From: Flavobacteriales bacterium
GTDB lineage: Bacteria; Bacteroidota; Bacteroidia; Flavobacteriales; Flavobacteriaceae
Direction of reading: 5' to 3'
NCBI GenBank assembly: GCA_004213645.1
Contig: SGZF01000001.1
Span: 1-64,000 of the forward strand
DNA: 64,000 nt
The translations under genes were made by a program, and so were the position numbers. This document shows positions 52,670 to 57,953 of this stretch, piece by piece; position 1 is the stretch's first letter, and every line of letters starts with the position of its first letter. A model generated the notes under the pieces. The model ran no database searches. It was not told the DNA's origin and saw nothing but the letters and a program-made list of their open reading frames with translations.

Positions 52670-53980
52670 ATGCCAGATAAAATAATTGGTTTTTCCAAAC
52701 TTTCAAGAGATGAGAAAATAAGTTGGATTAGTAGAAATTTTCTAGATAAGTCAGATGAATTTGAAAGTATTTTAAATAATTATTTGATTGATGATAAGAA
52801 AATTCAATCTCTACATAATTCATTTTCAGAAAATGTTATCTCAAATTTTAATCTCCCCTACTCTGTATCTCCAAATTTTTTAATAAATGATAAAAATTAT
52901 TGTGTTCCATTGGTCACCGAAGAAAGTTCTGTTATAGCTGCTCTATCAAAATCGTCAAAATTTTGGTTTGAAAGAGGAGGCTTTAAATCAAAGGTAATTA
53001 ACAGCTTAAAGAATGGGCAAATTCATTTCATGTATAATGGAAATATTAAAAAACTTAAAAAGTTTATAGATAAAAATGAATTAAAACTAATTGAGTCAAC
53101 GGATAGAATTACTAAAAAAATGAGAGAGAGAGGTGGTGGAATTAATAAAATCAAACTAATTGACAAATCTGGTGAATTGAATTCATATTTTCAATTATCT
53201 ATTGATTTTATTACAATAGATTCTATGGGAGCTAATTTTATTAACTCTTGTTTAGAAGTAATCTCAAAAACCTTTGAAAAACTAATTCATGAGTCAGATT
53301 ACTTTAATGAGTCAGAAAAGAAAACAAGAATAATAATGTCAATTTTATCAAATTATACTCCTAATTGTATTGTTGAAGCATCAGCTGAATGTAAAATAAA
53401 CGAGTTAGAAAATTTTGATAATTACTCTAAAGAAGAATTTGCCATTAAATTTAAAAATGCTTTTGATATAGCTAAAGTTGATGTAGGTAGAGCTGTAACA
53501 CATAACAAAGGAATAATGAATGGAATTGACGCAGTTTTAATTTCAACAGGAAACGATTTTAGGGCAGTTGATGCTGGAATTCACGCATTTGCTTCTTCAT
53601 CTGGGAACTATAAAAGTTTATCTGAGTGCTTAATCATTGATAATAAATTTAAAATCAGTCTCAAAGTTCCTATTTCAGTAGGGACAGTTGGGGGTATTAC
53701 AGATCTACATCCTATGGTAAAATTATCTCTTAAATTATTGGGTAACCCATCTTCTGAAGATCTTATGAAAATAATATGTTCTGTTGGTCTTGCTCAGAAC
53801 TATGCAGCTGTCAAATCATTAGTAACTACAGGAATTCAAAAGGGCCATATGAAAATGCATCTTATCAATCTTTTAAATAAGAATAAAGCAAGTAAGGATC
53901 AAATAAAAAGTGCAGAAGAATATTTTAAAAATAAAGAAATTAATAGCCAATCAGTATCTGAATTTCTTAATAAAAATTAA
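52670..53980 (+). CDS. Hydroxymethylglutaryl-CoA reductase, class II
   Basis: A 436-residue reductase converting HMG-CoA to mevalonate. Catalytic positions of class II enzymes are visible: Glu in 'CVPLVTEESSVIAA', Lys in 'THNKGIMNGIDAV', Asp in 'ISTGNDFRAVDAG' and the C-terminal His in 'IQKGHMKMHLINL'. 'SIDFITIDSMGANFINSCLE' is the substrate-binding region. Together with the GHMP kinase 5 bp downstream it shows use of the mevalonate route to isoprenoids, common in Flavobacteriaceae. A biosynthetic direction is inferred from this context. Confidence 0.95.
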   Translation: MPDKIIGFSKLSRDEKISWISRNFLDKSDEFESILNNYLIDDKKIQSLHNSFSENVISNFNLPYSVSPNFLINDKNYCVPLVTEESSVIAALSKSSKFWFERGGFKSKVINSLKNGQIHFMYNGNIKKLKKFIDKNELKLIESTDRITKKMRERGGGINKIKLIDKSGELNSYFQLSIDFITIDSMGANFINSCLEVISKTFEKLIHESDYFNESEKKTRIIMSILSNYTPNCIVEASAECKINELENFDNYSKEEFAIKFKNAFDIAKVDVGRAVTHNKGIMNGIDAVLISTGNDFRAVDAGIHAFASSSGNYKSLSECLIIDNKFKISLKVPISVGTVGGITDLHPMVKLSLKLLGNPSSEDLMKIICSVGLAQNYAAVKSLVTTGIQKGHMKMHLINLLNKNKASKDQIKSAEEYFKNKEINSQSVSEFLNKN

Positions 53981-53985
53981 TTCAA

Positions 53986-54882
53986 ATGAAATTCTACAGT
54001 AATGGTAAACTTCTAATTACAGGTGAATATGCTGTTTTAAATGGGGCTTTATCTCTAGCTATTCCCTCAAAATTTGGCCAATACTTAGATATTTCCGAAA
54101 ACTCAACAAAATTTATTAATTGGAAGAGCAAAAACCGTGACGATAAGGTGTGGTTTGAATGCAAAATATCTATAAAAAATTTAAATGTTGAAGAAACAAC
54201 TTCAAATGAAATTTCAAATAGGTTAGTAAAAATAATAAGTTTAATTAAGGAGTATAATCCATCTTTTTTGACGAAAACTGGCTCAAAAATTTCAACAAAA
54301 TTAACATTTGATAAAAATTGGGGGTTAGGATCATCATCAACACTAATTTCAAATCTTTCAAAACTTGCTAATGTTGACCCATACATAATTAATAGTAAAA
54401 TTTTTAAAGGGAGTGGTTATGATATTGCATGTGCAAATTCTAATTCACCGATATTGTATAAGATAAAAAAAGCTGAAAGAACAATTAAAGAGACTAATTT
54501 CAATCCAATATTTAAAAACAAAATATATTTTGTTTTTTTAAATAAAAAACAGAGTTCTTTAGCTGAAATAAAGAGATATAAAAGTTTGAAACCTTCAAAT
54601 TTAATATTAAGTGAAATATCTGATATAACATTAAGAATTTCTAATTGTAAAAATGAAATTGAATTTATCGACTTAATATCTTCTCATGAAAAAATTATAT
54701 CAAAATTAATTTCAAAGAAACCAATTAAAGATATTCTATTTAAAGATTTTGAGGGTGAAATAAAAAGTTTAGGAGCTTGGGGAGGCGATTTTATATTAAC
54801 TATAAGTCAAGATGACCCTTCAAGTTATTTTAGAAGTAAAGGATATAATACCATTTTTAAATATCAAGAGCTATTAGCCTAA
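53986..54882 (+). CDS. GYDIA family GHMP kinase (mevalonate pathway-type)
   Basis: A 298-residue kinase of the GHMP superfamily. It begins 'KFYSNGKLLITGEYAVLNGALSLAIP', has the phosphate loop 'NWGLGSSSTLISNL', the namesake 'GSGYDIACAN', and ends with 'IKSLGAWGGDFIL'. This group follows HMG-CoA reductase in Flavobacteria, consistent with a mevalonate or phosphomevalonate kinase, but the exact substrate is not fixed by sequence. Its stop overlaps the convergent ppiD-like gene by 4 bp. Confidence 0.92.
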   Translation: MKFYSNGKLLITGEYAVLNGALSLAIPSKFGQYLDISENSTKFINWKSKNRDDKVWFECKISIKNLNVEETTSNEISNRLVKIISLIKEYNPSFLTKTGSKISTKLTFDKNWGLGSSSTLISNLSKLANVDPYIINSKIFKGSGYDIACANSNSPILYKIKKAERTIKETNFNPIFKNKIYFVFLNKKQSSLAEIKRYKSLKPSNLILSEISDITLRISNCKNEIEFIDLISSHEKIISKLISKKPIKDILFKDFEGEIKSLGAWGGDFILTISQDDPSSYFRSKGYNTIFKYQELLA

Positions 54883-56660
54883 TAATAAAAACTTCTGTTA
54901 TCAACTATTTCTGCCTTTGATTCTAGTACTTCAGGAATTAAAGTTGATATTCTCTGAACTTCTTGATCACTTAATGAGTTAGAGATTGCAGAGGCTATGT
55001 TGATGTCTTCAGCCTTTTGTTTTGATATTAACCTTATTAAATATATTCCCTCGTTTCCTTTTAGAATTTTAGATGTTTCGTCATTATCCAAAGAGAACGC
55101 AGATCCGATAATATATGGTTCAGCACCAGCCCCAACTAAAATTGGGTCATATTGAGTTACTGCTGAAGCTCTTTCTAGTTCAACATCATAATTTTTAGAA
55201 AGTGTTTCAATATCTTTAGATTTGTTTTTATCTGTAAAAAAGTTATATTTTTTTTCTCTTAAAAGAATCTGCGAAACTTCCATTCTAACCTCATCAATAC
55301 TAGGTAAAGATTTTTTATTAAAACTTAATGCTTTAGCTACTAAATATCCTTCACTAAGTGTGAACCTTTTAACATCCCCAACTCTAGTTTGATCTTCATG
55401 TAACCATTTAATAACTTGTCTTGAGTTTGAGAGAGCAGGTAAGCCAGGGTCAAAATCTTCAAATGAGTCGTAAGAACTAATAGATAATGAGTTATCATTA
55501 TTCAGAGGCAAATCGTTATTAGCATCAAACTCAGCCTGAGAAGCAATTCTATAACTTAAGTTCGAAGATTCATTAGATGGAGATATTTCTTTAACTAAAT
55601 CTGCAATCAAAACCTTATTGATATTTCCATCCCTTTTTTTATCAATCATTCTTGAAATTTTAAACAAGTTTCCATCTCTGTAGGGCCCAAAAACTTCACC
55701 AACATTCAAACCAAATAAAATATCAGAGAAATCACTTGTAAGTTCTTGTTTAGATTTATATATAGAATCCCAAGCTACATCAGAATAAATCTCAATATAT
55801 TCAGAATAATCCTCTACATCATCAAATCCAGGAATTTCTTCAATATTATTTGTGACCCGATTCATTTGAGAAAAACCATCTCTGATTTGTTCTAGATCAG
55901 ATCTTATATTATTTAAATCAAGACTAGATGCAACATCTGGAATATATATATATTCTAATTTTCTAAATTCACCAATTTCAAATAACTCCCTATTATTCTT
56001 CAAATATGATAAAATTTCAGAGTCTTTAATCTGAAAAATTGAATCAGGAATCATATCATAGGGTATTCTTAAATATTCAATATTGACTTTATCATTTTCT
56101 AAATGATATTGAATATTAGACTCTACATTTGTATATATTACACTAGACTTTATTAAATCAAAATAAATTTTCTGTTTAGCTAATGAAATAATGTCCTGTT
56201 CTTGAAGTCTCCATTGATTGTACATTGAAGGGTTTGAAGACTTTAGTTGCGAAATATAATTTGTAAATTTATTAAAGTCAAAAAGACCAATTTCATTTTG
56301 AAATAATGGATTCATTACTATAGATTGATTTTCAGAAATAATTTGTTCAAGCTGATCTTTACCAGCATCAATTCCAAGTTTTTCAAGCTCTTGAATTAGA
56401 GTTTGGTTTTGTAATCCTTGATTCCATGCAAAGTTTACTGCGTTAATTGTACTTAATCCATAAACATTCTGGGCTTGTTCAACCATCATGTTAAACATTT
56501 CATAATCAATTTCCTCACCATTAATTTCTCCAATAGGTTTATTCGAACTAAATCCTCCGTTTGAGGTAAAAACACCAGAAATTACAAAGGCAAATAAAGC
56601 CATTCCAATAACTATAATAAGAAATATTGATCGCTTTCTAATTTGTCCTAGTACTGCCAT
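54879..56660 (-). CDS. PpiD/SurA-like periplasmic chaperone lacking the parvulin domain
   Basis: A 593-residue inner-membrane anchored protein ('RKRSIFLIIVIGMALFAFVISGVF', residues 9-32) with the SurA_N chaperone region (about 40-200). Flavobacterial homologues, as I recall them, are about 700 residues and carry a PPIC rotamase domain after a 'VGEVFGPYKDGNFFKI' string. Here 'VGEVFGPYRDGNLFKISRMI' (320-340) runs almost straight into 'LIADLVKEISPS', the segment that normally follows that domain. No 'ARHILI' or rotamase strand is present. It probably works as a holdase for outer-membrane or secreted proteins without isomerase activity. The CorC-type gene precedes it on the same strand. Confidence 0.85.
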   Translation of the reverse strand: MAVLGQIRKRSIFLIIVIGMALFAFVISGVFTSNGGFSSNKPIGEINGEEIDYEMFNMMVEQAQNVYGLSTINAVNFAWNQGLQNQTLIQELEKLGIDAGKDQLEQIISENQSIVMNPLFQNEIGLFDFNKFTNYISQLKSSNPSMYNQWRLQEQDIISLAKQKIYFDLIKSSVIYTNVESNIQYHLENDKVNIEYLRIPYDMIPDSIFQIKDSEILSYLKNNRELFEIGEFRKLEYIYIPDVASSLDLNNIRSDLEQIRDGFSQMNRVTNNIEEIPGFDDVEDYSEYIEIYSDVAWDSIYKSKQELTSDFSDILFGLNVGEVFGPYRDGNLFKISRMIDKKRDGNINKVLIADLVKEISPSNESSNLSYRIASQAEFDANNDLPLNNDNSLSISSYDSFEDFDPGLPALSNSRQVIKWLHEDQTRVGDVKRFTLSEGYLVAKALSFNKKSLPSIDEVRMEVSQILLREKKYNFFTDKNKSKDIETLSKNYDVELERASAVTQYDPILVGAGAEPYIIGSAFSLDNDETSKILKGNEGIYLIRLISKQKAEDINIASAISNSLSDQEVQRISTLIPEVLESKAEIVDNRSFYY

Positions 56661-56702: not shown

Positions 56703-57953
56703 CTATTGTTCGTCAATTTTTTTTAGAACTACTTTCTCAATTTTAGATGAAGTTGCATGTAAAATTTCAATAGAGTATGAACCAATTATAATTATATCTC
56801 CAATTTTTGGAATTTCTTCCTTGTTAAATACAATAAGACCTCCTAAAGTGTCATATGATTCAGATTGAGGTAGATTAAAATTATATGTTCTGTTAAGATA
56901 CTCAATCTCTAATCTAGACGAAAATTCATATATATTCTCTGACAATTTTTTTTCATGAAGGTCATTAGTGTCATGTTCATCTTCTATTTCACCGAAAAGC
57001 TCTTCAACTATATCTTCAACAGTAATTATTCCAGATGTACCGCCATATTCGTCAATTACAACAGCAATACTCTTACTCTCTCTTGTCAATTTTTCTAGTA
57101 CATCATTGACCAACATTGGTTCTGGGACAAATACAACAGGTAGAATAAATTCCTTAATGTTTGAAGGTTTTTTTAAAAAATCAAATGAGTGAACATAACC
57201 AACTATATCATCTATTGTATCATTATAAATTGGAATTTTTGAAAATCCTGTTTCTATAAATAAATCTTTTACTTTGAAAATTGATGTAGAATCTTCTAAA
57301 GCAATTATTTCTGCCCTAGGAACCATAATATCTCTTGCTTTGATTTCAGATAATTCTAAAGCATTTTGAAAAATTTCTATCTCAGAATCTAAATTTTCAT
57401 CTGATTTTTCAATTTCATTTTCAATATAATTTTCTAATTCTAATTTAGAAAAAGACATTGACGATTCATCTGGATTAACTTTAAAAAAAGATTGTAGAAT
57501 AAAATTTGAAATAATTGTAACCAAACTGGTTATAGGATAAAATATTGTATAAAAAAAATATGCAGGCAAAGCAAAAATCTTCATTGAAATATTAGAATAA
57601 ATTTGAAATAACACTTTAGGTATAAACTCTGCAGCTAATAATATAACTAATGTCGATATTAAAGTCTGAATTAACACAATAGATATTTCATTCATTACAT
57701 AGATATCGTAATACAATAAATTATTCATTATAAATTCCCCCATAAAAATTCCATAAATAACTAGTGCAAAGTTATTGCCAATCAACATGGTTGCAATAAA
57801 CCTTGACGGATTTTGAGTTATAATTGAAAGTAACTTTGGTATTAACCCTTTTTGATTTTTTTCAATTTCTAGATTCAATCTGTTTGAAGAAACATAGGCT
57901 ATTTCCATTCCAGAGAAGAAAGCTGATGATAAGAGACTGAGAATAATTATCAT
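56703..57953 (-). CDS. CNNM/CorC-type hemolysin family protein
   Basis: A 416-residue membrane protein. The N-terminal DUF21/CNNM domain has about four hydrophobic helices ('LSSAFFSGMEIAYVSSNRLNLE'). A CBS domain pair ('ARDIMVPRAEIIAL', 'IAVVIDEYGGTSGIITVEDIVEELFGEI') and a C-terminal CorC_HlyC domain ('RTYNFNLPQSESYDTLGGLIV') follow. The family is linked to magnesium or cobalt efflux; the gliding protein GldE also belongs here, but the gldE context (ssb, gldD) is absent. It is part of the coaX-to-ppiD minus-strand cluster. Confidence 0.92.
   Translation of the reverse strand: MIIILSLLSSAFFSGMEIAYVSSNRLNLEIEKNQKGLIPKLLSIITQNPSRFIATMLIGNNFALVIYGIFMGEFIMNNLLYYDIYVMNEISIVLIQTLISTLVILLAAEFIPKVLFQIYSNISMKIFALPAYFFYTIFYPITSLVTIISNFILQSFFKVNPDESSMSFSKLELENYIENEIEKSDENLDSEIEIFQNALELSEIKARDIMVPRAEIIALEDSTSIFKVKDLFIETGFSKIPIYNDTIDDIVGYVHSFDFLKKPSNIKEFILPVVFVPEPMLVNDVLEKLTRESKSIAVVIDEYGGTSGIITVEDIVEELFGEIEDEHDTNDLHEKKLSENIYEFSSRLEIEYLNRTYNFNLPQSESYDTLGGLIVFNKEEIPKIGDIIIIGSYSIEILHATSSKIEKVVLKKIDEQ

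Follow-up and report, generated by a model that had tools for sequence, protein, structure and literature searches.

Has a ppiD-like gene from a marine flavobacterium lost exactly its parvulin domain, and if so, how often and why has this happened? The gene lies on contig SGZF01000001.1 from a member of the Flavobacteriaceae, of which we analyzed the first 64,000 nucleotides (the window). The original prediction, which was made from these letters alone, described the protein as the product of a single, clean, in-frame deletion that left a chaperone-only protein, perhaps as part of genome streamlining.

The ppiD locus and its protein

The open reading frame (54879..56660, minus strand) starts with ATG and encodes 593 amino acids; Pfam, orthologs, and synteny identify it as an ortholog of PpiD without a parvulin domain. 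It has a predicted N-terminal membrane anchor (hydrophobic residues ~12-31, at 56568..56627 on the minus strand; predicted helix 2-28), at the same position as in the PpiD proteins of other species. Pfam also identifies a SurA-like N-terminal chaperone region (SurA_N_2, residues 4-136, 56253..56651, minus strand, E = 1.3e-24) and a Rotamase_2-type region (residues 479-556, 54993..55226, minus strand, E = 2e-11), which is retained and is distinct from the parvulin domain. There is no hit to Rotamase_3 or PF00639 above the Pfam cut-off in the 593 residues. In two full-length relatives (same family), these models match residues ~333-455, with E = 2e-29 and E = 4e-33, and both of those proteins also have SurA_N and Rotamase_2 matches like those of the window's protein. 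An HMM that we built from the parvulin domains of 68 full-length PpiD proteins found no meaningful match in the short forms (the best had E = 0.0056, in a distant family, and those in the window's genus had E of about 1 or worse). The signature histidines of parvulins, and the ASHIL and GFHVI motifs, are absent from the 593 residues, including the Rotamase_2-type region.

The missing domain would lie between residues 332-344 (LFKISRMIDKKRD; 55629..55667, minus strand) and residues 347-358 (INKVLIADLVKE, followed by ISPS; 55587..55622, minus strand), which are the two strands of a hairpin in the AlphaFold2 model and the alignment. Between them, Gly345-Asn346 (55623..55628, minus strand) replaces the ~105 parvulin residues of full-length relatives, as seen in both the alignment and the models. 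The interval 55560-55660, where the flanks of the parvulin domain were said to be nearly contiguous, encodes residues ~334-367 and includes the junction (the minus-strand reading is GPYRDGNLFKISRMIDKKRDGNINKVLIADLVKEISPS); within the 593-residue frame, the junction is GPYRDGNLFKISRMIDKKRDGN-INKVLIADLVKEISPS. So the flanks do meet as described, across just two residues, and the estimate that the protein is about 100 residues shorter than its homologs was accurate (593 amino acids against ~700). An alignment of 111 sequences, along with Pfam and the tree discussed below, confirms that exactly the parvulin domain was deleted in frame. The retained SurA_N_2 region and the rest of the sequence are consistent with a membrane-anchored chaperone body.

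Predicted structures agree with this picture. For a full-length sister, AlphaFold2 (mean pLDDT 88.8) places one long strand at residues 333-355, leading into the parvulin domain, and another at 443-464, leading out of it. In the model of the window's protein (mean pLDDT 85.9), there is one hairpin (332-344/347-358) with a tight turn at Gly345-Asn346. As modeled, the parvulin domain interrupts a beta-hairpin of the PpiD core at its turn, and removing the domain leaves the core fold intact: the models account for the clean loss, as the strands can close without it. The modeled insertion agrees with the published description of PpiD from E. coli, in which the parvulin domain is nested within the third domain (PMC9643414). 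The best solved match of both models is PpiD from the PpiD-YfgM complex (8zht). For the window's protein, the Foldseek hit to 8zht has E = 1.8e-30 and a TM-score of 0.71 (by query length), and 8zht is also the top hit of its sequence profile (E = 1.4e-76), although the solved chain, at 673 amino acids, exceeds the matching part of the window's protein by ~100 residues. Matches to Pin1-type structures go from E ~3e-8 with the full-length model to E = 0.46 with the short model.

The gene's surroundings are conserved as well. Upstream of ppiD is a gene for a CNNM/CorC-type membrane protein (56703..57953, minus strand), which tblastn found at nearly all of the loci that we searched. On the other side is a convergent GHMP-kinase-type gene (53986..54882, plus strand), which shares 4 bases with the end of ppiD and is present at many loci in the family. 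The next conserved neighbor is an HMG-CoA-reductase-type gene (52670..53980, plus strand), which we named by sequence recognition; conservation with an ortholog in the family (L042, 51%) supports the name. By position and phylogeny, the window's gene encodes a true ortholog of PpiD. (At contig CABYAF010000016.1, the ppiD region is present at both ends, inverted, as L045 and L046; this looks like an amplification or assembly artifact of a single-cell genome.)

The protein has the predicted single N-terminal transmembrane anchor and large periplasmic part of PpiD, as well as the SurA-like region, the fold, and the orthology, and it lacks the parvulin domain from which PpiD takes its name. Judging from the sequence, we classify it as a domain-less variant of PpiD and not as a peptidyl-prolyl isomerase.

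Distribution of the short form and genome size

The window's genus comprises marine genomes of the MED-G11/NS5 type, of 1.0-1.3 Mb; among its records are several marine assemblies from single cells or metagenomes, as well as Cryomorphaceae bacterium MED-G11 (FRAM18 bin151). All 16 of the other complete orthologs from the genus have 591-595 amino acids, an intact frame, and the same junction. We rejected an assembly error, a frameshift, or chance as the source of the short form because the junction is intact in 17 genomes of the genus.

Of the 150 other genera of Flavobacteriaceae that we searched, 148 have a match to PpiD, and the two without a match are represented by incomplete genomes. Among the matches listed, those from other genera are ~700 amino acids and span the parvulin domain, except for a few fragments at the ends of contigs. 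Short forms are also found elsewhere in the order, in families f6, f13, and f15 (~594-617 amino acids), and elsewhere in the phylum, in families f33 and f35 (~590 amino acids; 12 of these were included in the alignment). Of the 111 aligned orthologs, 68 have a parvulin segment of 94-118 residues and the other 43 have just 1-2 residues there, with no intermediates.

Some of the full-length proteins are unusual in other ways. L077 (from genome G217 of family f11) encodes a PpiD of 784 amino acids, which is longer than all of its relatives; its parvulin segment is 118 residues long, and it has other insertions besides. An open frame of similar length (795 amino acids) is found in G276, which shares a genus code with L077. 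The full-length ppiD at G164:C12:23352-25475 contains one in-frame TAG, so it might be a pseudogene or reflect a sequencing error. Family f16 has genomes of just 0.6 Mb (L085, L086, and L087) and has full-length PpiD proteins of ~700-720 amino acids, with 705-710 at these three loci, that include the parvulin domain, which is contrary to expectation under extreme reduction.

Was the domain removed by streamlining, that is, by selection for a small genome? The 1.0-1.3 Mb genomes of the window's genus and the ~1.0-1.8 Mb genomes of families f6 and f15 are consistent with this explanation, as is a stepwise fall in the number of parvulin matches (from 5 to 3 to 2, see below). But the domain was also lost in family f13, with genomes of 2.5-3.1 Mb, and in families f33 and f35, with genomes of 2.9-4.7 Mb, and it was kept in the 0.6 Mb genomes of f16 and in Flavobacteriaceae with genomes of 1.4-1.8 Mb. 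STREAMLINING alone is no explanation: because the domain is missing from genomes of 2.5-4.7 Mb and present in genomes of 0.6 and 1.4 Mb, genome size is neither necessary nor sufficient for the loss of parvulin. This part of the original prediction was not supported, and we consider it doubtful that streamlining was the cause. Small genomes may favor such domain losses.

The remaining prolyl isomerases

Within the window's genus, the only matches to Rotamase_3 are the two domains of a SurA-type protein, and we found no isolated or relocated parvulin gene in these incomplete genomes (completeness is 78% for the window's assembly). With the SurA-type protein as the sole match, we rejected the idea that the parvulin domain had moved to another gene, and it is unlikely that an isolated parvulin gene was overlooked in every genome of the genus.

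Besides the one SurA-type protein, with its two parvulin-like domains, the genus keeps FKBP proteins and cyclophilins. In the SurA-type protein at L141:472-1842 (plus strand, outside the window), the first parvulin has a glutamine instead of the first signature histidine, and the second has a degenerate C-terminal half. Relatives with larger genomes share this pattern, so the degeneration predates the loss from PpiD. Another protein that is found across the genus is a 336-residue fusion of cyclophilin and FKBP with a lipoprotein-like signal (LNSC), which in the window's genome is at L142:521-1531 (minus strand, outside the window). Its domain content suggests a dual-family immunophilin, which is possibly the main remaining prolyl isomerase of the envelope.

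More broadly, the number of parvulin domain matches in Flavobacteriaceae declines from 5 in several relatives to 3 in most of the sister genera and 2 in the window's genus. Families f6, f13, and f15 have a second two-domain parvulin protein (~650-720 amino acids) beside SurA, which is missing from the window's genus and from most of the sister genera. Thus, parvulin genes and parvulin domains vary independently.

For PpiD's partner YfgM, we found no confident candidate in the genus (the matches to PF09976 are weak). We considered and rejected L140 from the window's genome: it is a TPR protein that adjoins a VWA-type gene and looks BatC-like.

A rotamase domain elsewhere in the 593 residues had been raised as a challenge to the original prediction, and there is indeed such a match, to Rotamase_2. 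Could this region now provide the isomerase activity? The Pfam match is above the cut-off, and the region weakly resembles a borrelial PPIase domain (8sot). But full-length relatives carry the same region alongside their parvulin domain, its sequence in the window's protein lacks the signature histidines, and the short model matches Pin1-type structures only at the E value given above. Because the match occurs in full-length relatives too, we rejected it as a leftover isomerase, and it is very improbable that this region has taken over the activity.

History and meaning of the loss

To count the losses, we used a maximum-likelihood tree of PpiD that was built from 582 columns outside of the parvulin domain. 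The short forms fall into three clades, each with 100% support, whose nesting among the full-length forms has 97-100% support. Parsimony on this tree gives three changes and a full-length ancestor. The window's genus (17 sequences, 100% support) is sister to four full-length genera of Flavobacteriaceae, so the clade did once have the domain. In AU tests with a reduced set of 48 sequences and a simple model, forcing the window's genus together with f6/f13/f15 cost 252 log-likelihood units (p = 1e-46), and forcing f6/f13/f15 together with f33/f35 cost 251 units (p = 4e-58).

The sequences and their phylogeny show that the absence of parvulin in the window's genus is derived, not ancestral, and that the domain was lost at least three times independently, at the same site, within the phylum: in the window's genus, in f6/f13/f15, and in f33/f35. 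Two other details also favor independence: the scars differ (the scar of the window's genus, DGN-I/L-N, is ~4 residues longer than in the other two short clades), and the proteins of the window's genus are more similar to several full-length proteins of the sister lineage (38-44% identity) than to the short forms of other families (18-24% identity). The original prediction of a single event stands for the window's genus, but there were at least two further losses.

If the short form were ancestral and parvulin had been inserted later in other lineages, this would explain why several deep families in this phylum have short forms. However, the strong nesting of the three short clades, the outgroup positions of the full-length forms, and the AU tests all contradict ancestral absence, and PpiD from E. 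coli, which is outside the phylum, carries its parvulin nested at the equivalent position (PMC9643414), so we view this scenario as extremely unlikely. Spread of a short allele by horizontal transfer or recombination, which would explain why the junction positions of the three clades differ by no more than a few residues, is just as implausible: the short clades cluster with their respective relatives, the tree and the AU tests contradict whole-gene transfer between lineages, and the identities, the conserved gene neighbors, and the differing scars all oppose it.

The short ppiD is still under selection. For close pairs within the window's genus, dN/dS is 0.07-0.22 (it was saturated for two distant control pairs), so the gene is under strong purifying selection. 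As for the domain that was lost, of 68 full-length Bacteroidota parvulins, 64 have the first signature histidine and 65 have the second. Because most full-length forms keep these residues, the lost domain was probably a competent parvulin, in contrast to the inactive domain in E. coli.

PpiD is a periplasmic chaperone that is anchored in the inner membrane and is expected to act on proteins as they emerge from the Sec channel. We propose that in the ancestor of the window's genus, the parvulin module was cut out exactly and that the hairpin strands closed via the Gly-Asn turn, which in the models preserves the core fold. The short PpiD would then chaperone without isomerase function, and prolyl isomerization in the envelope would be left to SurA and to FKBP and cyclophilin proteins, or might not be needed at the Sec exit. 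Taken as a whole, it is very probable that this is a true PpiD whose parvulin domain was deleted in the genus's ancestor and which acts as a chaperone without isomerase activity, with the function argued by analogy.

The analogy is to the engineered PpiD-deltaParv of E. coli, which likewise is PpiD minus only the parvulin domain. PpiD-deltaParv protects citrate synthase from aggregation, is active as a chaperone both in vitro and in vivo, and rescues chaperone-deficient E. coli, including surA skp cells; in one assay in E. coli it showed slightly weaker complementation, and it seemed less stable (PMC2956729). Unlike that construct, the window's form is natural and is fixed in three clades, one of which is this genus. 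Also, PMC2956729 cites work that describes the parvulin domain of E. coli PpiD as catalytically inactive, so little about the loss of an active parvulin can be learned from the comparison. SurA offers another parallel, as its chaperone core (SurAN-Ct, cited in PMC2956729) works with the PPIase domains removed; SurA differs in being soluble and in having two parvulin domains, and the genus retains a separate SurA-type protein. The closest comparison is to the orthologous PpiD of other Bacteroidota (~700 amino acids, with SurA_N, Rotamase_3, and Rotamase_2), which shares the anchor, the SurA-like N-terminal region, the hairpin core, the C-terminal region, and the gene neighborhood; the ~105-residue parvulin there is a tight turn in the window's protein.

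Our search of open-licence papers found nothing about a parvulin-less PpiD or about flavobacterial PpiD. Given the scope of this search, such absence is weak evidence, and we provisionally consider the parvulin-less PpiD to be previously undescribed.

More tentatively, the genus might have lost its only parvulin with both histidines, and the ~105-residue module might be an optional plug-in of PpiD that is repeatedly removed when isomerization at the Sec exit is not needed or is handled by immunophilins. One practical consequence is that annotation as "peptidylprolyl isomerase" by overall similarity may cover proteins that lack the isomerase domain. There are also now natural matched pairs of PpiD with and without parvulin. 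PpiD's need for its parvulin domain has so far been argued from constructs in E. coli; here, there are at least three natural deletions at the same site. This repeated loss argues that the chaperone body, for which we measured selection in the window's genus, is the conserved function of PpiD and that the isomerase module is optional.
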